Positions 4,644-42,424 of a stretch of DNA of 64,000 nucleotides are shown here, piece after piece. The notes beneath the pieces were generated by a model that was not told where the DNA came from, made no database searches, and saw only the letters and a list, made by a program, of their open reading frames with translations. A program made the translations under genes and the position numbers. The first letter of the stretch is position 1. Each line of letters begins with the position of its first letter. This DNA is from Deltaproteobacteria bacterium. GTDB taxonomy: Bacteria > Desulfobacterota > DSM-4660 > Desulfatiglandales > Desulfatiglandaceae. The stretch lies in assembly GCA_021737785.1 (NCBI GenBank), contig JAIPDI010000001.1, positions 124,001-188,000 of the forward strand, read 5' to 3'.

Positions 4644-5438
4644 TTAAGATGGCTTGACCGCCAGAATATAGGCGGAAAAAACCACCTTTTCCGCATTGTC
4701 CGCGACGTTCCAGCCTCGAATGATCTCCTCGCTCTGCTCCTTTTGCCGGATGGCGATTGCCTGAAACCCCAGGTCCGACAGAATCCCTTCCACCTCCCCG
4801 GGTGAAATGGCCCCGGCCACTCACCCGGTATAGGCGAGGGGGTTGTCTTGAAGCGCCTTTGGGATTTCTCCGGAGCGGAGGATATCGGAAATAACGATCC
4901 GGCCCCCCGGCTTCAAAACCCGATGAATTTCGCCGAAAACCGCGGTCTTGTCCGGGGAAAGGTTGACGACGCAATTGGAAATGACCACATCCACGGAATT
5001 GTCCTCAACAGGCAGGGCCTCGATCTTTCCCATGCGGAAGTCTACATTGTGGATATTCAGACTTTCGGCGTTGGCCCTGGCTTTCTCAACCATTTCCCCG
5101 GTCATATCCATACCGATCACTTTCCCTGCCGCACCCACCTGCCTGGCCGCCAGAAAGGCATCGAATCCCGCACCGCTGCCGAGGTCCAGCACGATCTCGC
5201 CCGGCTTCAGATCCGCTTTGCCGATGGGATTGCCGCAACCCAGTCCCAGGTTTGCCTCTCCGGGCGCCAGCAGGAGATCCTCATCCTGATAGTCAAGGAT
5301 CCTTCCCATGGCCTGGATGTCTGTGATGAGCGTGGGACCGCCGCAACACGACGAGGCGCCCATGCCGCGCTTCCCTTCTGCGATGGCGGCATATTTTTCT
5401 TTGACCAGCCCATGTATCTCGTTGTCTTCTGGTTTCAT
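4644..5438 (-). CDS. arsM: ArsM-type arsenite methyltransferase, probable selenoprotein (in-frame TGA at 4821-4823)
   Basis: SAM-dependent methyltransferase for As(III). Start ATG 5438 has GGAGG ten bases upstream and gives the family's usual KEKYAAIAEG N-terminus. Visible parts: SSCCGG Cys pair that binds arsenic (about residue 30), SAM motif VLDLGSGAGFDAF (about 82-94), SNCVVNLSP Cys (about 155). A TGA interrupts the frame after LAYTG, exactly where relatives have the conserved arsenic-binding Cys of the YTGC(I/V)AGA motif. After it the frame stays open for 58 codons and keeps family sequence (VAGAISPGEVE, then GFQAIAIRQK) to TAA at 4644. A SECIS-like hairpin follows the TGA. Read with Sec, the protein has 264 residues, the normal length. 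A plain truncation would remove a catalytic residue and conserved tail; nonsense mutation remains the alternative. Confidence 0.8.
4786..4820 (-). promoter_or_regulatory. SECIS-like hairpin downstream of arsM TGA
   Basis: Directly after the TGA (4823-4821, minus strand) there are 13 bases and then a stem TTTCACC (4807-4801), a six-base loop CGGGGA (4800-4795) and the pairing arm GGTGGAA (4794-4788): seven pairs with one G-U. Two further C-G pairs form below an A-G mismatch. The loop begins 21 bases after the TGA and has G at its second and third positions, fitting the bacterial SECIS pattern (short loop with early guanine, within roughly 16-37 bases of UGA). It would recruit SelB inside the coding sequence. 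An overlapping CCGGG/CCCGG stem nearer the TGA is an alternative fold. Confidence 0.6.
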
Positions 5439-5473
5439 GGAATGCACCCTCCGTTGTGCCGGGGACAGGTTGT

Positions 5474-5707
5474 CTAGCTGGTTATCCATGCCTTGATCTC
5501 TTCTTTGGAAGGGACCTTGCCCACACACTTAACCTCCCCGTCCACCACCACCGCCGGCGTCATGAAGACGCCGTGTTTGGCAATGTCCATGACGTCTTTG
5601 ACCTTGCTCACCGTGACATCGACCCCTGCCTCATGTATTGCCTCTTTAACGCGTTTTTCCGTCTGCTCGCATTTGGGACACCCAGGCCCCAATACCTTGA
5701 TTTCCAT
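5474..5707 (-). CDS. Small thioredoxin/glutaredoxin-fold protein (redox-active disulfide protein family)
   Basis: 77 residues starting MEIKVLGPGCPKCEQ, the signature of the small MTH895/TM0996-like thioredoxin family with a CPKC active site (residues 10-13) and the MTPAVVVDGEV cis-Pro segment. No signal peptide, so cytoplasmic. Such proteins often accompany ArsP-type permeases and arsenic methylation genes. It lies 35 bp upstream of the arsM start and is followed in the upstream gene by a closely similar domain (IKVLGPGCVQCDR), indicating duplication. A GGAGAAGG-type ribosome-binding site precedes the ATG. Confidence 0.9.
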   Translation of the reverse strand: MEIKVLGPGCPKCEQTEKRVKEAIHEAGVDVTVSKVKDVMDIAKHGVFMTPAVVVDGEVKCVGKVPSKEEIKAWITS

Positions 5708-8456: not shown

Positions 8457-8521
8457 GATTTCCAAGGGAAATTCGAATGAATCTTTCCGGGGGGTTTTAT
8501 TTTCGACAAAACGGAGGAGTT

Positions 8522-9181
8522 ATGGAGCTATTGGATAATCTGCACGTCTTTTCGTGGAACAGCATGACGGCCAACAACTGCAACGCTTATTTCATCGATA
8601 ATGGAAAGAGGATACTGATAGACCCGGGCCATTATCATCTGTTCGATCACGTGCGGGATGAGCTTGACAGGCTTTCCCTCTCCCCTGAAGACATGGATAT
8701 GGTCATTATCACCCACGGCCATCCCGATCATATGGAGGGAGTCAGGATATTTCAAGATACAGATGCGGTGGTGGCTGTCTCATCCCGGGAAATGGAATTC
8801 ATCCAGACCGTCGCCCCCCACTATGGCGCGGCCCTTGGGATCCCCGATTTCGAACCGCAGATTCTGCTCCAGGAAGGGGACCTGAAGGTGGGGGATCTGG
8901 TTTTTGAGGTCATCCATACACCAGGACATTCTCCGGGTTCCATATGCCTCTATTGGCCTGAACGAAAGGTCCTTTTTACAGGCGATGTGGTATTTAACAA
9001 CGGAATCGGGAGGACCGATCTCCCGGGCGGTAACGGCGAGGCTCTCAAGGAGAGCATCCAAAAGATCTCCCGGCTTGATGTGGAGTACCTGCTGACAGGC
9101 CACGGCGATATCGTGTCGGGCAAGGAGGCCGTCCGGGAAAATTTCAAGGCCATCGAGGCCTACTGGTTTGCGTACCTATAG
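8522..9181 (+). CDS. MBL-fold metallohydrolase
   Basis: 219 residues from ATG 8522 (GGAGGAG five bases before; an in-frame ATG at 8477 lacks a site). The metallo-beta-lactamase fold is complete: THGHPDHMEG (HxHxDH, about residues 73-82), HTPGHSPGS (third His), TGDVVF (bridging Asp) and GHGDIVSG (last His). The spacing is that of glyoxalase-II-like or persulfide-dioxygenase-like hydrolases with two metals, but specificity is not determinable. It has its own promoter and is followed 100 bp later by the LysR gene on the same strand. Confidence 0.9.
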   Translation: MELLDNLHVFSWNSMTANNCNAYFIDNGKRILIDPGHYHLFDHVRDELDRLSLSPEDMDMVIITHGHPDHMEGVRIFQDTDAVVAVSSREMEFIQTVAPHYGAALGIPDFEPQILLQEGDLKVGDLVFEVIHTPGHSPGSICLYWPERKVLFTGDVVFNNGIGRTDLPGGNGEALKESIQKISRLDVEYLLTGHGDIVSGKEAVRENFKAIEAYWFAYL

Positions 9182-9281: not shown

Positions 9282-10217
9282 ATGTCCCATCAAACATCAT
9301 CCATGGATTTTGATCTGCGCCAGCTGGAAATATTCCGGAAGGTGGTGGACCTGAAGAGCTTTTCAAAGGCTGCGGACGCCGTGTTTCTGGTTCAGGCCTC
9401 GGTGAGCGAACGGATCAGCACCCTTGAAAACATGGTCGGGACCCGGCTCCTGGATCGTCTGGGCCGGGAGGTGGTCCCCACCAGGGCCGGTGAACTCCTC
9501 TACAAACACGCGGTCCTCCTTCTGGATATGAAGCGGACAGCGGCCCTGGAGATGGCCGATTTTCTGGGCATCAGACGGGGCGAAATACGTCTTGGCGGGA
9601 GCACCATCCCCGGCGAGTACATCCTGCCCAGGGTGATCGGCCGGTTCTGCCGGGATTACGCTTCTTTGTGGGTAACCTTGACGGTGGGAGATTCCGTCGG
9701 TATCGAAAGCCGGGTCCTGGCCGGGGGCCTTGAGTTGGGCGTGGTGGGTTCCAAAGGGTCCCACAAGAGCCTTATTCAGCATGAACTCTGGAGAGACGAA
9801 CTGGTTCTGGCAGTCCCTGCCGGACACCGCTGGGCCCAAAAAAAGGAGGTCCCTGTGAATGCCCTGAATGAGGAGCCTTTTATCTTCAGGGAACCCGGAT
9901 CAGGCACCTTCAAGATTCTTGACGGCTATCTCCAGTCCGCCGGATCAGCCGGCCTGAGCGCCCTCAAACCGGTTGCATGCTTTGGAACATCGACCGCGAT
10001 AAAGGAAGGGATAAAGGGGGGGCTCGGGATTTCGGTGCTCTCATCAAGGGCCGTGGATACCGAACTCGAGACCGGCATCCTCAAGGCCCTCAGAATCCAG
10101 GGGCTTCCCATGTACCGGAATTTTTTTATGATCAGGGACAGGCGGAGGATCGTATCCCCCCTGTGTCAGGCCTTGATCGACTTCCTGTTAACGACCACTC
10201 GGACGGAAAGAGAATAA
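9282..10217 (+). CDS. LysR-family transcriptional regulator (CysB/CysL-like)
   Basis: 311 residues. An N-terminal winged helix-turn-helix (LRQLEIFRKVVDLKSFSKAA then QASVSERISTLENMVG, about 10-65) is followed by a periplasmic-binding-protein-like effector domain (about 95-300) with GGSTIPGEYILPRVI, as in regulators of sulfur or thiosulfate use. ATG 9282 is used; a second ATG lies seven codons later and neither has a strong ribosome-binding site. The TusA-like selenoprotein gene begins eight bases after its stop, so the two are probably co-transcribed and the effector may be sulfur- or selenium-related. Confidence 0.85.
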   Translation: MSHQTSSMDFDLRQLEIFRKVVDLKSFSKAADAVFLVQASVSERISTLENMVGTRLLDRLGREVVPTRAGELLYKHAVLLLDMKRTAALEMADFLGIRRGEIRLGGSTIPGEYILPRVIGRFCRDYASLWVTLTVGDSVGIESRVLAGGLELGVVGSKGSHKSLIQHELWRDELVLAVPAGHRWAQKKEVPVNALNEEPFIFREPGSGTFKILDGYLQSAGSAGLSALKPVACFGTSTAIKEGIKGGLGISVLSSRAVDTELETGILKALRIQGLPMYRNFFMIRDRRRIVSPLCQALIDFLLTTTRTERE

Positions 10218-10225
10218 CCGCCATT

Positions 10226-10447
10226 ATGCCATTTGACATCATGGACTACAGGGGAGACTGCTGAAAGGCCTATCTGGACATAGGCCTATGTCTCAGGATA
10301 CTCCCCCCGGATAAAACCTTCGAGTTTATTATCGAGAGCGAAAAGCTGGAAAAGGTCAAAAAAGTAATCTCCCACAATCACGGCGAGGTTATCGCAGAGA
10401 TCCCCGCGGATAACGACGTCCGGGTGGAAATTAGAAAAAAGGATTGA
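10226..10447 (+). CDS. TusA/SirA-like small selenoprotein (in-frame TGA at 10262-10264)
   Basis: A 74-codon frame from ATG 10226 to TGA 10447 with an internal TGA as codon 13. It starts MPFDIMDYRGDC, then Sec, then KAYLDIGLCLRILPPDKT and continues FEFIIESEKLEKVKKVI..GEVIAEIPADNDVRVEIRKKD. The layout matches TusA sulfur carriers: D-x-RG, a reactive Cys two residues later, a helix, P-x-D/E-x-T before a beta strand, a second helix and a final beta strand ending IRK. The TGA occupies the position of the active-site Cys of the TusA CPxP motif (the Pro is Lys here). A strong SECIS-like hairpin follows. Standard gene calling would miss the gene, since either half is shorter than usual cut-offs. It follows the LysR stop by eight bases. 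A frameshifted or dead gene is less likely because both sides keep coding character. Confidence 0.75.
10265..10300 (+). promoter_or_regulatory. SECIS-like hairpin in the TusA-like gene
   Basis: Twelve bases after the TGA the palindrome GACATAGGCCTATGTC (10277-10292) forms six pairs closing a GGCC loop that starts 18 bases after TGA, with G at loop positions one and two. The stem extends through CTG/CAG (10274-10276 with 10294-10296, one bulged T) and TAT/ATA (10271-10273 with 10298-10300, one bulged G). Stem length, loop size, loop G and distance all fit bacterial SECIS elements. A competing stem AGGCCTAT/ATAGGCCT (10266-10288) would place the loop too near the TGA. Confidence 0.65.
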
Positions 10448-33731: not shown

Positions 33732-34700
33732 TTAAAGTCTTCGCTTGAAGGATTCATACTCGGCGATCCCCATGACATGCCGTTCCAAATTTAGGGCTTC
33801 CCGATAAACCCACTCCCGGTAGGTACGCTTTTGGACGGTCTCCTCCAATCGGCCCGAAAACTGTTCAGCCACATGTCGACGCCCCAACTCCGTGAGCAGA
33901 CAAACGCCGTCGTGCTGTTCAAACCAATTATCCTTGATCATTCTCTTCCGGGTCATCCGAAAGATCAACACGTCTGTAAACAAAGGCTTAAACGGTTCCG
34001 ACAAATCCAGACTGAGAGACGAGCGACCGTTTCCGGGGGCGTGCAGCCAGCTCAAGCTCCCGTCCAAGTGGGTCTTGCAGGTCTCGTGACGCACGACAGC
34101 GTAGGTCATTTGGTTCAGGAATGAAATCAAACAGTTGATCGGATTATTCGGCGGACGACGAACCCGCCGTCCGAAATCGAGGCCTGGATCTATATGCCGC
34201 CATGCGGCGTAATACTGTTGGTGCAGTTGGCCTTCCATACCCATTAAGCCGGGTGGATCGGGTGCCTTCCCGATCCTCTCCATGAGCGCATCCATCTGTT
34301 GGACTGCGCTGTTCACCCCCATCTCGCCCCGATATCGATAATACAGCAAATTGGCACGCATGTTGTGCCCTGCTCCCCGGACCAGCTCCCGTGCAATTCC
34401 CATCCGTTCCGATGGATCGAGAATGGACCTGGCCTGTTCCAATTTCACGCGGCCAGACGCGCTCTGGTCAATAGGTTCGAACGCTCCCTTGAAATAGCCA
34501 TAATAATCAAACACGGAGATACGTACACCATTGGCGCCGCATAGACACAGTAGCCGTGAATTCAACCTGCTTTCCGACATGAGGACGATATGGCGGATCT
34601 TTTCAATCGGAAACGGTCGTGCCTCCCCGTTCACTGAAATGAACAGGGTGTTCTCTTTCCGTTTCAGGACCGCATCGCGGGAGACGAAAAGGGTTTCCAC
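33732..34700 (-). CDS. cas1: CRISPR integrase Cas1
   Basis: 322 residues from GTG 34700 (AAAGG nine bases upstream); the open frame extends 44 codons further into cas4 but with sequence unlike Cas1. Beta-rich N-terminal domain (VETLFVSRDAVLKRKENTLF) and helical catalytic domain with the metal ligands in LMGMEGQLHQQYY (Glu), LSWLHAPGNGRSSLSLDLSE (His, and Asp/Glu). These are the canonical E-H-D set. Adaptation enzyme of the I-D system. Confidence 0.96.
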   Translation of the reverse strand: METLFVSRDAVLKRKENTLFISVNGEARPFPIEKIRHIVLMSESRLNSRLLCLCGANGVRISVFDYYGYFKGAFEPIDQSASGRVKLEQARSILDPSERMGIARELVRGAGHNMRANLLYYRYRGEMGVNSAVQQMDALMERIGKAPDPPGLMGMEGQLHQQYYAAWRHIDPGLDFGRRVRRPPNNPINCLISFLNQMTYAVVRHETCKTHLDGSLSWLHAPGNGRSSLSLDLSEPFKPLFTDVLIFRMTRKRMIKDNWFEQHDGVCLLTELGRRHVAEQFSGRLEETVQKRTYREWVYREALNLERHVMGIAEYESFKRRL

Positions 34701-34717
34701 CTCAGATATCCTTTCCT

Positions 34718-35260
34718 TTACTCGAATCCACAAAAACCCGACAAAGAGCAGGTATCGCAAAGTCGGATTCGCGTTGCCTGTGGGGGCGCTTCCAAACGGG
34801 CGAGTTCCTCCAGCCGCTCCGAGGCCCGCCATAGCGATTCAAGGCGATTTGCATCCAACGGGACCTCCCGTCCTCGCCGGGTGGACAGGACGTGCGTCAC
34901 GGCCCGCCATCCCTTCCCGGTGGCGATGGAGAGCATCACGGCATAAAAGGCCGTCTGGTTGTCGGATGCCTCAACTGCACCGCCTGTTCCCTTGTTTTCA
35001 TAAACGATGCGATCATCCCAATTGATCCGGTCAGGGGCAAGGCCCATCAGTCCTTCGACCGAATGATCCCTGGCATAACTCGATTGGTGCTTGGCCGTCC
35101 CCGTAGCTACCCTGGCGTGCCACTGGGCGAAATTGATCCCGTGAAAATACATCCAAGCGCGCCGTTCGCACAGAGTAACATGCTGGAAATGTAGCCCATG
35201 GAGTCCCAGCCGTTCGACACGCTCATAAAATGGTTCCGCACGAATCCACCGCCATCTCAT
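34718..35260 (-). CDS. cas4: CRISPR-associated exonuclease Cas4
   Basis: 180 residues. RecB-like nuclease with the Fe-S Cys set split as usual: one Cys in LCERRAWMYFHG (about residue 31) and three in CDTCSLSGFCG near the C-terminus. Nuclease residues D and ExK are visible in INWDDRIVYENKGTGG. Cas4 trims pre-spacers and helps select the PAM. Its start overlaps the cas3' gene end by 38 bp. Confidence 0.93.
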   Translation of the reverse strand: MRWRWIRAEPFYERVERLGLHGLHFQHVTLCERRAWMYFHGINFAQWHARVATGTAKHQSSYARDHSVEGLMGLAPDRINWDDRIVYENKGTGGAVEASDNQTAFYAVMLSIATGKGWRAVTHVLSTRRGREVPLDANRLESLWRASERLEELARLEAPPQATRIRLCDTCSLSGFCGFE

Positions 35261-37193
35261 CGGTCACCACCAGTCCCGTCAGCCGGACAAGGGTTTCGGT
35301 CGCAGCCATAGCCTCTGGATGTTTTTCCCATGCGAGGGCCCCCAGACCCCTTGCATCACGAAAAGCCCGACACCAACTATCGATTAGAAAGGCATCGTCA
35401 TCCAATTCCGCTACGTATTCAGTATGGGGGAATCGGACCCGGCGATTTGCTTTGATGAACTGCGGACGGTCCAAGAGGCTGTCGCCCAAGGTCCCCCGAA
35501 TATGCACCTCCTCCTGGCCATCCTCGCCCATCACAACCGGAAATCGATCCAAGATGTCGGTGTTGCGACGCAGCCAGATCTCGGATGCGCGCCATTTTTC
35601 ACCGGATCCGTCAACCACTCGCACACCTTTATCGATATCCCGAAGCGTGCGGGCCTCTTCTTCGAATCGGTCGCACCAATCCTTGACGATCGGCCCGATT
35701 CGAGCATCCGTTTCCATCTTTCGAACTTTCCTAATCAAGGCGAAAACCGCCTTGGCCGGTTGCGGCTGAAACTCCTTCAGGTGCTTCCAGCGATGACCCT
35801 GGTTGCTGAAGTGTCCCATCAATACATTCCAGAAGAGACCCGCCGAATAAGCTGCCTGGTTGGGCAAATTGCCGAAATAGCGCCTTCCATCTTGAGGGCG
35901 ATCTTTAAATCGCTGCCGCATTTGACGGCTCAACGTCTCTGTCAAATCATTAATGCTAAGTCTTTCACCACTGTGGGCTGAAATCCATTTTTCCAATGAA
36001 ACGAACCAAGAGTATTGGTTGCGAAAATCGTCGTCAATCCGGACGATCACCCGGCCATCGTGGTCGCCCCTTGCAGCCCGGCCGTATCGCTGAAGGAAAT
36101 TGAGCGGCTCAAAACCCGGCTCCATGAACAATAAGTTAGCCCGAAAAGTTACCCCCATTTCTACGCTGGCCGTGGCGATCAGCATGTCGAATTGTTCAGG
36201 GAGGTTATTCCGACCGGCCGAAAAATAATCAGGATGAGCGATGTTGATCCTTGAGTCGTCAATGCTGTCGATGAGAAGAACTCGGCCTTCCGGAAGCCCT
36301 GCTGCCCTCAGCATCGCCTCCAGTTTAGGCAAATCCCGCTGAAGGTCGGCCAGCCGATTGTAAATCACGACCACCTGACGGTCCAACCGAATCTCTTCGC
36401 GGATGGCCGCGGTTTCACTGTGAAGCAAAGAGACCATGTCCCCGCAATCCCGGAGCGAGAGCTGAACATGGCCATGGACGGGCCGCCCAGTGGAAGTCAA
36501 AGTCTCCTTCAGATGAACGATCTGACTGTCTGGAATCTCGATCCGACGAAGGACGGCCTGGATATCCAGCGGAGTGGCAGACAAGAAACTGACTCGTGCC
36601 CGGCTTCCGGGATATTCAGTGGCCAATTTGGCGAAGACCGCGGCTAGCCCGAATCCTCTCGGGGCGATGGTGTGGAATTCGTCAAAGACAATATGCTCAA
36701 ATTGATTGAGTATCTCAAAGACGCCCATGTCGGTCTGGCCTTTTTCCCTTCTCCGTCTCAATAGCAAATGACTCACGACTTCGGGCACTGCAACGATCAT
36801 TTCACCGCCTTCGAGAGCGATATTAAGCCCAGATATCTCGCGGACCCGGCGTGCGCCCACGTTTGTTTCACCACCGGCCTTCAATGCTTCAGTGGCGTCG
36901 GAGGTCCAAAGGGCCAGCTTTTGCGTTGCCGCTTCTGCCCGCCATCCTGCGTCCCGAATCAGGGATTCGTGCAGTCCTGCAATAAGATTTTGGGCCAATC
37001 GCCGCGTAGGTACGACAAAGAGAATGCGTTCGCCCGCCATCATGGCCCGCTGGAATGCATAACTCTTGCCGGCCCCTGTGGGCGCATCGGCGATTCGAAC
37101 CTTCTCCTGCCGGTTCAGCAGTTCCTGCTGCAGCGGAGAGAGTCCGGATTCCGGATCACTCTCCACGCAATGCCTCGAAATAGTCACATCCAT
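35223..37193 (-). CDS. cas3: Cas3' helicase of the type I-D system
   Basis: 656 residues, superfamily 2 helicase without an HD nuclease domain, as expected for type I-D where HD is on Cas10d. Walker A APTGAGKSYAF (about 40), motif Ia VVPTRRLAQNLIAG, DEFH box IVFDEFHTIAPRG (about 170), SFLSATPLD motif III, and the C-terminal RecA domain with ATASVEMGVTFRAN and QRYGRAARGDHDGRV (motif VI). It unwinds target DNA for degradation. In most described I-D loci cas3' is the first gene; here it follows csc1. Its start overlaps the end of csc1 by 10 bp. Confidence 0.93.
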   Translation of the reverse strand: MDVTISRHCVESDPESGLSPLQQELLNRQEKVRIADAPTGAGKSYAFQRAMMAGERILFVVPTRRLAQNLIAGLHESLIRDAGWRAEAATQKLALWTSDATEALKAGGETNVGARRVREISGLNIALEGGEMIVAVPEVVSHLLLRRRREKGQTDMGVFEILNQFEHIVFDEFHTIAPRGFGLAAVFAKLATEYPGSRARVSFLSATPLDIQAVLRRIEIPDSQIVHLKETLTSTGRPVHGHVQLSLRDCGDMVSLLHSETAAIREEIRLDRQVVVIYNRLADLQRDLPKLEAMLRAAGLPEGRVLLIDSIDDSRINIAHPDYFSAGRNNLPEQFDMLIATASVEMGVTFRANLLFMEPGFEPLNFLQRYGRAARGDHDGRVIVRIDDDFRNQYSWFVSLEKWISAHSGERLSINDLTETLSRQMRQRFKDRPQDGRRYFGNLPNQAAYSAGLFWNVLMGHFSNQGHRWKHLKEFQPQPAKAVFALIRKVRKMETDARIGPIVKDWCDRFEEEARTLRDIDKGVRVVDGSGEKWRASEIWLRRNTDILDRFPVVMGEDGQEEVHIRGTLGDSLLDRPQFIKANRRVRFPHTEYVAELDDDAFLIDSWCRAFRDARGLGALAWEKHPEAMAATETLVRLTGLVVTDEMAVDSCGTIL

Positions 37194-37825
37194 TGGATCA
37201 CTTCCATTGCCGCATCATCGAGTTCCATAGGGGGAGTCAATTGCATGGAATGGAGGCAGTACCGCTCCACCGACAATTCACGGTCGAACATGGCAGCAGT
37301 GGCAGCATTGAGGCGGACCGGTTCGTTGCCTTCCGCCCTTTTCAACAGCACCATGCCGTTGCGGTGCAGCCCCACACGAATAACGATTTCAGCCTGCCCT
37401 GACGCATCAAAAGGATCGAAGCCCTCCAGCCCAAATACTGCGCCCTTGAACTTCTGTTCCGGAGGGACTTCCTGGACATGGAAGAAATCCTTCAAGTTAC
37501 CCTTTTTGGCCACGTCCTGGATCTTGCGCTGGAGTCCGGCCTCAGCGTCCAGGTTCAATCGGCGAGTTAATGGAGGCAGTAGCAGAGGATGTTCCGTGAT
37601 GAACACAGATGTCCGATACGGCATGGCGGCAAGATGATGGCGGTAGTTTTTGGGGGGAAGGCCCAGTCGGGCCGCAGTCATGCCCAGAGCGGCAGCCAAC
37701 GCAAAAGCGGCCGCCCGGTCTCCGATCAATTCGGGAAGAGTGGCTGTGCCGCCTTGAACCATCAGGCTGTGGTAGCAAAACGGCGACAGGGTCCTTGCCA
37801 TCACTGGAATTGCCTTGATAGTCAT
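37184..37825 (-). CDS. csc1: Csc1, Cas5-type subunit of type I-D Cascade
   Basis: 213 residues. Residues such as ARTLSPFCYHSLMVQGGTAT, YRTSVFITEHPLLLPPLTRR and FGLEGFDPFDASGQAEIVIRVG match the layout of Csc1 (Cas5d/Cas5 group), which binds the 5' handle of the crRNA. Identification leans on gene order next to Csc2 and Cas10d as well as on sequence. Start overlaps the csc2 stop (ATGA). Confidence 0.85.
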   Translation of the reverse strand: MTIKAIPVMARTLSPFCYHSLMVQGGTATLPELIGDRAAAFALAAALGMTAARLGLPPKNYRHHLAAMPYRTSVFITEHPLLLPPLTRRLNLDAEAGLQRKIQDVAKKGNLKDFFHVQEVPPEQKFKGAVFGLEGFDPFDASGQAEIVIRVGLHRNGMVLLKRAEGNEPVRLNAATAAMFDRELSVERYCLHSMQLTPPMELDDAAMEVIQWM

Positions 37826-38835
37826 GATGATTTCCCCGTACCGAACCAGCTGTCGAACAGTTCCGCCACTTTGGGCGCGGCCTTGATATATTGATCCTTC
37901 AACTCGGGATCATCCGCTTCGAACCGTTCCACCAGGTTGCGTTGATAAGCCTGGGCTTCGTCGGGTCCCATGGCCGCTTCATGGAGAGGTGACAGCAACT
38001 CGTGGAGCTTTTCAGTCACCACGTTGGGACTCTTCAGGTCTAAGCCCTTTCCGGTCATGGCCTTTACCACCTCGTAAGGAGATGTCTCGGCCCTCTCAAA
38101 CCGACTGCCATAGAGTCCCACCAGACGGGAATGGATGTTGACGCCGGTGATGGAGGTCTGCCCGCCATAGGAACCGGCAAGCCCCATGGAGAGCAGCAGG
38201 TGGTCCAGTCCTTCCAGAGGCAGCACCTTGCCCCGAGTGGACAGGACCTGCACCATCAAGGTCCCCGGCAGGATGAAATAGCGGGTAAACAGATGTTCGC
38301 TGTTCTTCTTGCTTTCGGCATCGAACAAAGTGCCGTCCTCCATGGCCCGATTGTGAAAGCTTTCATCCACACACAGATGTTTAGGCAAAAGGCTCAGCCC
38401 GTCGGAATAGTTTACTCCGGCCCGCACCGGCAGAATCCGCGTGTCATGGGTGGTGGAATCGCCGAAAACCAGAGTATTCAGATCATAGGCGTCCGACGGC
38501 TTCTGATCCTTGCGGAGGATCGTCTTGTTCTGAGGCAGTCGTCCCCCAACCCCATAAGCGCGGAGAATTTGAAGGCCGCGGCCTTTTTCCGGATATTTAA
38601 ATTTGTTGGGAACAGCGCGAACGTAAGGCTCATCCAAAACCTCAATATCCGTAATTTCCTGCTCCGCATTCCGGAACACCACCGGGGCGATGGCTTCCCG
38701 GATCACTACAAGATTGATGCACCCAAGGTTTTTTAGCGCTGGATGGATATATTCATCTTTCTTGCCCTTGCTTTCGCTAGGGCTGGCCGTCACCAATAAG
38801 TCGATGTTGCCCAGATAAGGGATAAATCGTTTCAT
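37822..38835 (-). CDS. csc2: Csc2, Cas7-type backbone subunit of type I-D Cascade
   Basis: 337 residues. N-terminus FIPYLGNIDLLVTASPSESK, then LGCINLVVIREAIAPVVFRN, YGVGGRLPQNKTILRKDQKP, SEHLFTRYFILPGTLMVQVL and GLAGSYGGQTSITGVNIHSR are characteristic of Csc2, the RRM-fold subunit that multimerises along the crRNA. Start overlaps the cas10d stop by four bases. Confidence 0.93.
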   Translation of the reverse strand: MKRFIPYLGNIDLLVTASPSESKGKKDEYIHPALKNLGCINLVVIREAIAPVVFRNAEQEITDIEVLDEPYVRAVPNKFKYPEKGRGLQILRAYGVGGRLPQNKTILRKDQKPSDAYDLNTLVFGDSTTHDTRILPVRAGVNYSDGLSLLPKHLCVDESFHNRAMEDGTLFDAESKKNSEHLFTRYFILPGTLMVQVLSTRGKVLPLEGLDHLLLSMGLAGSYGGQTSITGVNIHSRLVGLYGSRFERAETSPYEVVKAMTGKGLDLKSPNVVTEKLHELLSPLHEAAMGPDEAQAYQRNLVERFEADDPELKDQYIKAAPKVAELFDSWFGTGKSS

Positions 38836-39260
38836 TCGTTATCCTCCTTTTGGATGTTATTCCGATTTTCATTCACACGGTCATGATGCGTTTTCAAGAA
38901 AGCCATGCGGTAGATGCTGGAAAGAATCCGTCGACTTTTCTGGGTGGGACTTTTGCCGGCCAAGACCCCAAACCAGACATCGTTGACGAACAGTTCGGCC
39001 ACCGCGAGGCAATTATCGATGAAACCTTTATCCTTCCATGCCTTGTTTTTCCGAATCAGGTTGGTCTCCAGTTCCCCCGCGATCGCATAGCCGAGGGATG
39101 CGGCGTCCTCCTGTCCGATGCGGCGTGCCTCGTTGGCGGTATCCAGGCAAATCTTGAAAACCATCAATTCTTCATTGGCCGAGGCCGCGCTGCCAGGGTT
39201 TCTCTGAATGCCGGCCGCGGCCCTACCTAACCTCACCAATGCACCATCTTGTTCATTCAT
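38832..39260 (-). CDS. cas11d: Cas11d small subunit, internal translation product of cas10d
   Basis: ATG 39260 lies in frame inside cas10d (codon 814) and is preceded by GGAGGATGAAGGACTC, which offers GGAGG 11 bases and AAGGA three bases before it. It would give 142 helical residues (NEQDGALVRLGRAAAGIQRN onward), the size of a Cascade small subunit. In type I-D systems a separate small subunit, Cas11d, is known to be translated from within cas10d, so this is expected biology. The exact start here is inferred from sequence only. Confidence 0.65.
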   Translation of the reverse strand: MNEQDGALVRLGRAAAGIQRNPGSAASANEELMVFKICLDTANEARRIGQEDAASLGYAIAGELETNLIRKNKAWKDKGFIDNCLAVAELFVNDVWFGVLAGKSPTQKSRRILSSIYRMAFLKTHHDRVNENRNNIQKEDNE

Positions 39261-41699
39261 GAGTCCTTCATCCTCCATACAATTAGTGAATTCCAAATAT
39301 AAACGGTTTGACAACGCAGACCTTTTTTCCTCACGATCCTTCAAATGGCACCACGCGAGGCACATGGCACCAAACCGAGTCCTATTCCCGGCATACTGCA
39401 TGAGCACCTCATATCCCAGACCGTTGGTTTCGAGCAGATCGGACGCCATGTGAAGCCGATCAAGGGCAAGTGGAAGTTGTTCCAGATACAATCCGTTATC
39501 GCCTAGAAGTTCCACTAAAACCCGGGGCATGGCATCGAAATAAAAATACTCTTTCCGAAGGATAGGCAGGCCACGAAACAGATGAATTGGGCGCCCCAAG
39601 CGCCGGGCGGCGGTGATCAGCATCCGAAGAAAATCGACTTGCCCCTTAAGGGTTTCGGGAATCCTTTCCAGGCGGGCCATTCGGTGGCGACCCTGATATG
39701 CTTCTATTCCCTTCAGAACCCGACCCTTTTTCATCTCATATCGGGTCAGATCATAAAGGGACATGGCCCCCATGGCCCGGTCTTCGGTCAAACCGAGGCC
39801 ACCAAACAGTCCGCTGGTGGTAGGAGATGAAATCAGCGTGGGCACCCCGCTTTCTCTTCCACCCTGAATTTCGTGAACGTCCGATCTCATTCTATGTTCC
39901 GCTATGGAGGTGAACCCGACATTGGTGTGAGACTTTTCTGAGGTGATCAGTTCGGGACGTCCCTCCCGGCCGGAAAAAGCCGAAACCTTGACACCGTAGA
40001 GCCCGGATGCCTGATTGATGGTGCATTTAAAATCCACTGGTTCATCCGTGAAAAGACATCGCCCTTCCGCGGACTCATCTTCTGCAACAACCCGTGTGCC
40101 GGCCAGCAGACGCGCCAGGCGGTTTCGGACACCGTCGACCACTGCGGCGCCTTCTCTCTGGATAAATTGGTTCAGGCCAGGAGATTGACCCTGACCTTCC
40201 AGCCATTTTTGTAACAGGCAAGCATCACTCTCCCATATCCGCTCAAGAACACCACCGTCTTCTGTGGCCAGGGCGACAGCCCACAAGGCCGTCACAGTCC
40301 GGCGGGAGGTGTCGTCTGAGATATTGGCGATCCAGTGTGGGCGCTCCATATTAACAGCAACCAATAGTTGGTTTTCCCGTTCAGTGGGTTGTAAAACACC
40401 GTTCTTGGGTTTCGCGTTCACCTTCAGATTAAGCAGCAGCACCAGATGGGCAGCGAGGTAAAGCCACTCTCTGTCGCTTGGCTCAATGCCGTCGAAGGAC
40501 GCATAGAGCGTCGTCAAGGCACCAGTGGGATTTTTCGGCCATACCGGCGCCAGTCCGATATCCGACAGCAGATCCTTGAGCAACGGTTTCAGTGAATCTC
40601 TCAATTCGTTTTTGATCTTGAACAAATCTGTGAGATCTTTGGACGTCAGTCGATTTACAATGAATTCTATCATCTCTTCGTGCGTGGGCTGGCCTTCATA
40701 GAGGGAAGGGACCCCTCGGTTGGAGACATCAAGCCTCATTTTGAAAGGGAGGTGATGACACAGTCGATCCAGCGCACTCGTCACGATATCATTGTACGAA
40801 GACTCCGGAATCAGCACAAACAAATGGCCATCCTGATGGACTTCAATCAATGGGGGCATCCCTGCCAGTTCCAGGCTCATGAGCGACAGCCATCGCTGGA
40901 GTTCATCCAGGAGAAACGGATGGTGCGGATCGAAAATATGAATAGCCTTCCAATTTCTTAAAATATCCGTGTGAAGACAGCTTTGATCGCTGGAAAGCAG
41001 GCGGATAACACCTTCCAAGCCACCTGTTTCGGGCTCGGTCGAAAGCCATGTACCGTCCAACCGGTCAGCAAGTCGCACATAAAGGGGAAGGGACTCGTAT
41101 TCACGGGGGGGTAATTCATCCGGGGGCGTTCGATGGGCCTGGGTGGCTTCCACCTTCTCCAACAGATATCGAAGCGCATCAGGAGTCAGTGAAGCGTCAA
41201 CGGCCCCCAGAAATGCATGGATGCCGTACCGAGCCATCCTTTCTGAGACCATGTCCGTTTCCAATGGCGCGTTTCTCTTCAATTGGAGATCCTTGTCCAG
41301 ATCATGGCAGAAGCCGATGACCGCCAGCACGCACAACCGCTGTTCCAGAACACTCGGGTCCATCTCAGGATTCTGGCACATCCAATCCAGTGCAGCCAAC
41401 GTAATGGCCCCTCGGGCGACGGAAAGAAGATGATCGAGCATACTTACGTTAGAAAACTTGCTGTAAATGTCTTGCTTTTCTTGGGTTGGGGCTATCCCCC
41501 CCTTGCCGCTGATAGACATTAAACGCGGAATTCTGGGATCGATCATGAATTTATTTTCCACTTTCTTCCGCGTCTCTTCACCCAACGGCCCACCCAAACG
41601 ATCATTAATCACATGGCGCTCGACCACTTCGGCTAAAAAGCGTCTGTAAACCGACGCGGCTATCTGGGACGCGGTTTCCCCCCACTCCTTTTGGATCAT
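38832..41699 (-). CDS. cas10d: Cas10d (Csc3) large subunit with HD nuclease domain
   Basis: 955 residues from ATG 41699, which overlaps the cas6 stop as ATGA (the frame is open 11 codons further). The N-terminal HD domain is recognisable in VIGFCHDLDKDLQLKRNAPL (about residue 130), the nuclease that in type I-D takes the place of Cas3 HD. The middle is a degenerate palm-like Cas10 region, and a helical C-terminal part contains the small-subunit-like domain. A likely internal start at 39260 would make that part a separate protein. It recognises the PAM and, with Cas3', degrades the target. Confidence 0.93.
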   Translation of the reverse strand: MIQKEWGETASQIAASVYRRFLAEVVERHVINDRLGGPLGEETRKKVENKFMIDPRIPRLMSISGKGGIAPTQEKQDIYSKFSNVSMLDHLLSVARGAITLAALDWMCQNPEMDPSVLEQRLCVLAVIGFCHDLDKDLQLKRNAPLETDMVSERMARYGIHAFLGAVDASLTPDALRYLLEKVEATQAHRTPPDELPPREYESLPLYVRLADRLDGTWLSTEPETGGLEGVIRLLSSDQSCLHTDILRNWKAIHIFDPHHPFLLDELQRWLSLMSLELAGMPPLIEVHQDGHLFVLIPESSYNDIVTSALDRLCHHLPFKMRLDVSNRGVPSLYEGQPTHEEMIEFIVNRLTSKDLTDLFKIKNELRDSLKPLLKDLLSDIGLAPVWPKNPTGALTTLYASFDGIEPSDREWLYLAAHLVLLLNLKVNAKPKNGVLQPTERENQLLVAVNMERPHWIANISDDTSRRTVTALWAVALATEDGGVLERIWESDACLLQKWLEGQGQSPGLNQFIQREGAAVVDGVRNRLARLLAGTRVVAEDESAEGRCLFTDEPVDFKCTINQASGLYGVKVSAFSGREGRPELITSEKSHTNVGFTSIAEHRMRSDVHEIQGGRESGVPTLISSPTTSGLFGGLGLTEDRAMGAMSLYDLTRYEMKKGRVLKGIEAYQGRHRMARLERIPETLKGQVDFLRMLITAARRLGRPIHLFRGLPILRKEYFYFDAMPRVLVELLGDNGLYLEQLPLALDRLHMASDLLETNGLGYEVLMQYAGNRTRFGAMCLAWCHLKDREEKRSALSNRLYLEFTNCMEDEGLMNEQDGALVRLGRAAAGIQRNPGSAASANEELMVFKICLDTANEARRIGQEDAASLGYAIAGELETNLIRKNKAWKDKGFIDNCLAVAELFVNDVWFGVLAGKSPTQKSRRILSSIYRMAFLKTHHDRVNENRNNIQKEDNE

Positions 41700-42424
41700 C
41701 GTCCCACCCCCTTTTCCACCAAGCCGATGCACCCAAAACCAAAGCGATTTTTTTCGCCGATTCCCGCGTACCAGGCCAAGCGGAGATCTTCTTCGGCACC
41801 CTGGAGAACCAAGGGGACGCGCATGCCTATGACGAAGCTTTTTCGGCCGTCCGCAAACTCTTTGAGCGGTATCAGCGAGTCGTGTTTCTGGTTGCAGCGG
41901 ACATAAAGTCGATCAGGCTCAACCTTAAGCTGAACCGGACGATCCGCCACTCTTGAAAGCCGCGCACTCACCGCGGAACTCAAGTCCACCTCGTTCACAT
42001 GTGATACCCATTGCCGCTTGCTGTTTTCCTTTCGGGACACGGCCAGAGGCGAAAGCATGACCACGCCCAGAGATGTCAGACCCGGTGCGATAGGGTCGGG
42101 GTCGATTCGCACTTCTGCAGCGGAAAAGTCAACGGCTTCGCCCGTAGCCGCCCTTGCATGCCGGATATCGGCTGGGTCCATCTCCGACAGCCAGGTCCCT
42201 AATTGCGGATCCGGGCTACCGACCACAAGGGTATGCACCTTGTTCCCTTCTTTCTGACGCCATCCCAGAGCAGCGAAATGCCACATGCCGGCATTTGGGC
42301 CGACCACTGCTTCTGCGGGGGCTCCTCCAGCTGTCCAAGCATTGACCAGGGCGTCATGAAGGGTATCGATATTGCGATAGTCAACGCTTTTCCTTTTTGG
42401 TAATGTGATTCGGACGCGATGCAT
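41696..42424 (-). CDS. cas6: Cas6 crRNA endoribonuclease
   Basis: 242 residues with two ferredoxin-like halves and the Gly-rich loop near the C-terminus, WYAGIGEKNRFGFGCIGLV (GxGxxxxxGxG). It cuts the repeat transcript at the base of the CCCC/GGGG hairpin. The ATG has AGGAGG nine bases upstream. It is the first gene of the leftward cas operon, whereas in the usual I-D order cas6 lies after csc1. A candidate catalytic His is not obvious from position alone. Confidence 0.9.
   Translation of the reverse strand: MHRVRITLPKRKSVDYRNIDTLHDALVNAWTAGGAPAEAVVGPNAGMWHFAALGWRQKEGNKVHTLVVGSPDPQLGTWLSEMDPADIRHARAATGEAVDFSAAEVRIDPDPIAPGLTSLGVVMLSPLAVSRKENSKRQWVSHVNEVDLSSAVSARLSRVADRPVQLKVEPDRLYVRCNQKHDSLIPLKEFADGRKSFVIGMRVPLVLQGAEEDLRLAWYAGIGEKNRFGFGCIGLVEKGVGR

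Follow-up and report, generated by a model that had tools for sequence, protein, structure and literature searches.

The window analysed here (the whole 64,000-nucleotide stretch of DNA, from a sulfate-reducing bacterium) contains, on its plus strand, a small gene which, in the absence of protein or ribosome-profiling data, we regard as very likely to encode a SECIS-directed selenoprotein. The gene and the features that bear on it are:

8477-9181, plus strand: MBL-fold hydrolase (Pfam Lactamase_B, 8.4e-33), often directly upstream of the LysR gene in the window's clade
9282-10217, plus strand: LysR regulator, NCBIfam NF040786 (LysR_Sec_metab, selenium metabolism-associated), 259.2 bits against a cut-off of 250
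10226-10447, plus strand: gene for a predicted Sec-containing TusA-like protein, 73 codons plus stop, based on homologue searches and an AlphaFold model
10262-10264, plus strand: codon 13, a TGA very likely read as selenocysteine (U13), invariant in relatives found by TGA-free queries
10276-10293, plus strand: SECIS element of 7 bp, with arms GGACATA (10276-10282) and TATGTCT (10287-10293) enclosing the loop GGCC (10283-10286)

When the TGA at codon 13 is decoded as Sec, the frame yields a 73-residue protein (MPFDIMDYRGDCUKAYLDIGLCLRILPPDKTFEFIIESEKLEKVKKVISHNHGEVIAEIPADNDVRVEIRKKD) closed by a terminal TGA, with Cys12 (10259-10261) vicinal to U13, as the original prediction had proposed on the basis of the window. 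Across the family, the neighbourhood of U13 reads CU-x-[GA] in place of CPxP. The LysR open reading frame ends 8 nt upstream of the small gene's ATG, and metG lies on the opposite strand, convergent with the small gene.

Elsewhere in the window, a minus-strand frame at 4644-5528 encodes the arsenite methyltransferase ArsM and runs through a TGA at 4821-4823 (NPLAYTGUVAGAI); this is the window's second selenoprotein gene and comes from a known family. A CRISPR array with 39 or more repeats (CTCATAACCCCTCATGGGGATAGATAAC) extends from 30836 to about 33300 and is followed, at 33732-42424, by cas1, a cas3-like helicase gene and four adjoining open reading frames, for which no NCBIfam match was found.

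Whole-genome searches with the protein identified carriers in 32 of the 85 genomes of the class (one, G043, by a partial match only); every carrier has a single in-frame TGA, and in no case does Cys take its place. A 30-member profile gave 27 matches in 395 genomes of the phylum, all TGA-bearing, of which the weakest (L064) matches only in part and by chance; a 74-member profile gave 31 matches to E<=3.6e-12, again with one in-frame TGA each, followed by a gap to the next matches at E 2e-4. None of these searches demanded a TGA in the query, and a result this uniform lies far beyond chance. A codon-blind DNA pattern found TGA in 19 of 21 matches, the remaining two being unrelated sequences. 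Beyond the phylum, the evidence is limited to a TGA-bearing DNA pattern scanned across about 85,000 species genomes, which returned 112 stretches, 103 of them family members, a set biased by design; among the true members, the titles examined are of Desulfobacterota type or are MAG titles with loose names, whereas chance accounts for a few of the matches. Cultivated carriers include Desulfogranum japonicum and Desulfacinum hydrothermale.

The original prediction had suggested comparing codon 13 in other Desulfobacterota for Cys or TGA: among the 395 phylum genomes it is always TGA, no close homologue has Cys at the Sec position, and Cys is found there in distant TusA proteins only. Pairs of Cys- and TGA-bearing homologues are a usual criterion by which selenoproteins are discovered, and are not a requirement for being one. 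R9, D11, C12 and U13 are invariant across the family, the one exception being a Glu at D11 in a close relative outside the diverse set. C22 was ruled out as a partner for Sec, as Arg occupies that position in most of the wider family.

Two distinct subfamilies (e.g., UKGYKDVRLRL and UWGFKDVRARL) occur together in several genomes of Desulfobulbaceae type, as in the pairs L069/L138, L071/L102, L072/L132, L124/L127 and L125/L141. A decayed remnant of the selenoprotein gene (L223, in G043) retains its TGA and lies downstream of an intact LysR_Se gene. We also observed dsrA in 31 of the 32 carriers of the class as against 31 of the 53 non-carriers (Fisher p 9e-5), a correlation we reject as evidence, being confounded by phylogeny, with one family lacking nearly both.

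In the window's clade, the codons of DYRGDC show 0.085 differences per codon at first positions, 0.0 at second and 0.487 at third positions, which is near-silent variation, and the TGA shows zero differences, against a saturated level of about 0.7 at all codon positions in an upstream control. Upstream of the TGA, codon variation is confined almost wholly to third positions, and both sides of the TGA are therefore coding. Homologues starting only after the TGA, or a lack of conservation in codons 1-12, would have refuted the original prediction; neither was found, and DYRGDC is conserved. The window's genome contains both SelB (397 bits) and tRNA-Sec (73.6 bits), and SelB was present in all 18 distant carriers tested. 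SelB was uninformative as a discriminator inside the class, because nearly all class genomes have it.

The SECIS stem starts 11 nt after the TGA and the GGCC loop 18 nt after it; the predicted loop position and the CTG/CAG extension of the stem were both confirmed in the window. The E. coli fdhF element likewise has its upper stem-loop 11 nt after the UGA. All seven pairs, closing a 4-nt loop, are formed in 104 of 114 members. In a set of 74 diverse members, pairing occurs in 98.6 percent of cells, compared with 22 to 59 percent when the stem is slid, and six of the seven pairs show both-sided (compensatory) changes. Synonymous sites favour pairing far beyond codon usage (three of them with z of 12.8, 12.6 and 20.9, values inflated by relatedness), and RNAalifold recovers the same stem unaided. 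Folding of the region as a single sequence gave no significant result (z only -1.05); the conserved stem is revealed by alignment, not by a single-sequence fold. The minimum-energy fold of the window sequence is a competing AGGCCTAT/ATAGGCCT hairpin over the SECIS, at 10266-10287, which is shared by some relatives and is not conserved across the family.

Computation thus shows an invariant TGA, coding on both sides of it, a covarying stem at a fixed 11-nt distance and a Sec machinery in the genome, and on these four grounds the selenoprotein claim held; the presence of Sec in the product is predicted, and does not come from isolated protein.

AlphaFold models from two different subfamilies (pLDDT 91.7 and 96.7) have the TusA order of elements, and in both of them helix 1 starts at the Cys12-Sec13 pair, where the catalytic Cys of TusA sits. 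In Foldseek, the models match YeeD/TsuB of the YeeE-YeeD complex best among PDB entries, and TusA and SirA-like entries rank lower. L11 methylases score as well, and on its own the fold match therefore does not decide the question. Using hhalign against four TusA sequences (that of E. coli and three from the window's genome), we obtained E 1.7e-4 at a probability of 49 percent, with U13 placed on E. coli TusA Cys19; a narrower profile alone reached a probability of only 6 percent. Pfam gave weak TusA matches in 14 of 30 members (best E 0.0017), and five examined matches just below the family were all TusA-type proteins. The window protein alone fell below the PF01206 gathering score, with no TusA match in Pfam and nothing usable in NCBIfam or Pfam, a profile search of PDB sequences returned chance matches only and no relative, and the CPxP motif is absent from the family.

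Based on these observations, we consider a TusA fold and TusA kinship highly likely, as predicted by model, and call the family TusA-like rather than a TusA orthologue because the canonical CPxP is missing. The earlier description of a TusA-like protein with Sec at the TusA Cys position held with that qualification. In all likelihood the family is a new member of the TusA superfold, one that is Sec-only, and its sulfur transfer activity is inferred only.

In 24 of the 30 class loci, the small gene is immediately preceded on its own strand by an orthologue of the LysR gene; one further locus has the orthologue on the other side, and two of the loci without a linked LysR are cut by contig ends. 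The gap to the small gene is -11 to +10 nt in many loci, each of the 20 linked LysR proteins that were scanned is matched by NF040786, and the LysR of the window is the only one in its genome over that cut-off. In the other subfamilies the LysR is not linked, and most of the wider family is without it; LysR_Se also exceeds the cut-off in 21 genomes that were chosen for the search on account of having no intact small gene, one of them being the genome with the decayed remnant. These two observations rule out LysR as an obligate partner. The prediction that the small gene has its own LysR was therefore only partly upheld: the neighbour is real, and the linkage is conserved in the window's clade only. 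No linked partner protein recurs throughout the family, and the carrier role discussed below is therefore not shown. In a Syntrophobacter-type subfamily (L052, L054, L104 and L118), a gene for a CbiK cobaltochelatase-like protein, so named by by-eye resemblance only, lies downstream on the same strand.

The overall explanation that fits best, and which we hold to be likely, is a genuine selenoprotein of a new TusA-fold family that serves as a Cys-Sec chalcogen carrier or relay. Taken by itself, the carrier role is inferred without chalcogen-transfer data, and as the best-supported function it could as readily prove wrong as right. Under this proposal, Sec13 would act as the nucleophile, accepting an oxidising equivalent or a chalcogen atom (in the form R-Se-S or R-Se-Se); Cys12 would resolve the loaded Sec13 via a selenenylsulfide, and the cargo would pass to a partner protein. 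With the small gene last in an MBL-fold - LysR_Se - SeTusA set in the window's clade, its supply would probably be tuned to selenium status by the LysR. A bolder reading, toward which we are rather more sceptical than not, is that sulfidogens possess, in a Sec-fixed family without Cys orthologues, a relay dedicated to selenium or sulfur and controlled by a selenium-responsive LysR; the trafficking unit of the original prediction likewise remains an inference.

The simplest alternative is that the TGA is an ordinary stop that closes a 12-residue peptide, with non-coding sequence or a decayed gene beyond it. Standard gene calling would indeed stop there, and one genome does hold the decayed remnant described above, but an invariant TGA flanked by conserved protein sequence in more than 100 genomes, together with near-silent variation and a covarying stem, all but excludes this reading.

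The main rival accepts the selenoprotein and makes it a thiol-selenol oxidoreductase or peroxide-reducing protein that has reused the TusA fold and lost CPxP. The replacement of CPxP by CU-x-[GA] speaks for it, as does a 2026 review (PMC13188914) in whose view the majority of uncharacterised selenoproteins are probably redox proteins; on the other hand, neither a CxxU or UxxC motif nor a linked reductase gene is present, and the fold is typical of carriers. We find this possibility a serious one, though rather less likely than not. It has also to be considered that the protein, which cannot be made without Sec, is a reporter whose amount signals selenium sufficiency to the adjacent LysR_Se. 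The Sec-only nature of the family and the tight coupling to the LysR gene at many loci are consistent with such a role, but LysR_Se occurs without the small gene, the LysR is absent beside most of the family, and the effector proposed for HrsM, the archaeal orthologue, is selenophosphate (PMC5322559), all of which leaves the reporter model unlikely.

The carrier reading of a TusA-fold selenoprotein concerns a family that appears, in our judgement, likely to be undescribed. No TusA or SirA selenoprotein is among the 119 families of the 2026 review (PMC13188914), no model in NCBIfam 20.0 matches the family, and the literature searched contains no description of it; preprints and most subscription journals were outside the scope of that search, and an earlier report is not excluded. 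The finding would add to the 119-family list a selenoprotein family with a TusA fold, which is unrepresented there. According to the deep-Sep paper (PMC12013277), Cys homologues seem to exist for every known selenoprotein, and its filter may drop those that have none; the apparent lack of Cys orthologues here is an absence of the very signal that current finders use, and more Sec-only families may be hidden. The position of the gene beside the only over-cut-off LysR_Se of its genome offers a testable handle on selenium sensing or movement, an open question in the literature.

Among known systems, the vicinal CU selenoproteins (SaoC, SaoL, HgcA and KCU-star) share the Cys-Sec pair (PMC13188914), but are assigned to other families and domain models. 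The linked regulator is by score a member of LysR_Se / HrsM (NF040786), whereas the relevant sections of the paper defining LysR_Se (PMC5322559) mention no linked selenoprotein of this kind. YedF (TIGR03527), a TusA-DsrE protein, likewise ties a TusA-type domain to selenium metabolism (PMC5322559), but carries Cys together with a DsrE domain and CPxP; the window's genome contains a separate YedF-like gene (L178). While the new family differs from the TusA / SirA family (PF01206), including YeeD/TsuB, in having Sec for Cys, a vicinal Cys-Sec pair, no CPxP and a Pfam score below gathering, it resembles that family in its predicted beta-alpha-beta-alpha-beta-beta fold, its length of about 70 residues and the placement of the catalytic residue where helix 1 begins.
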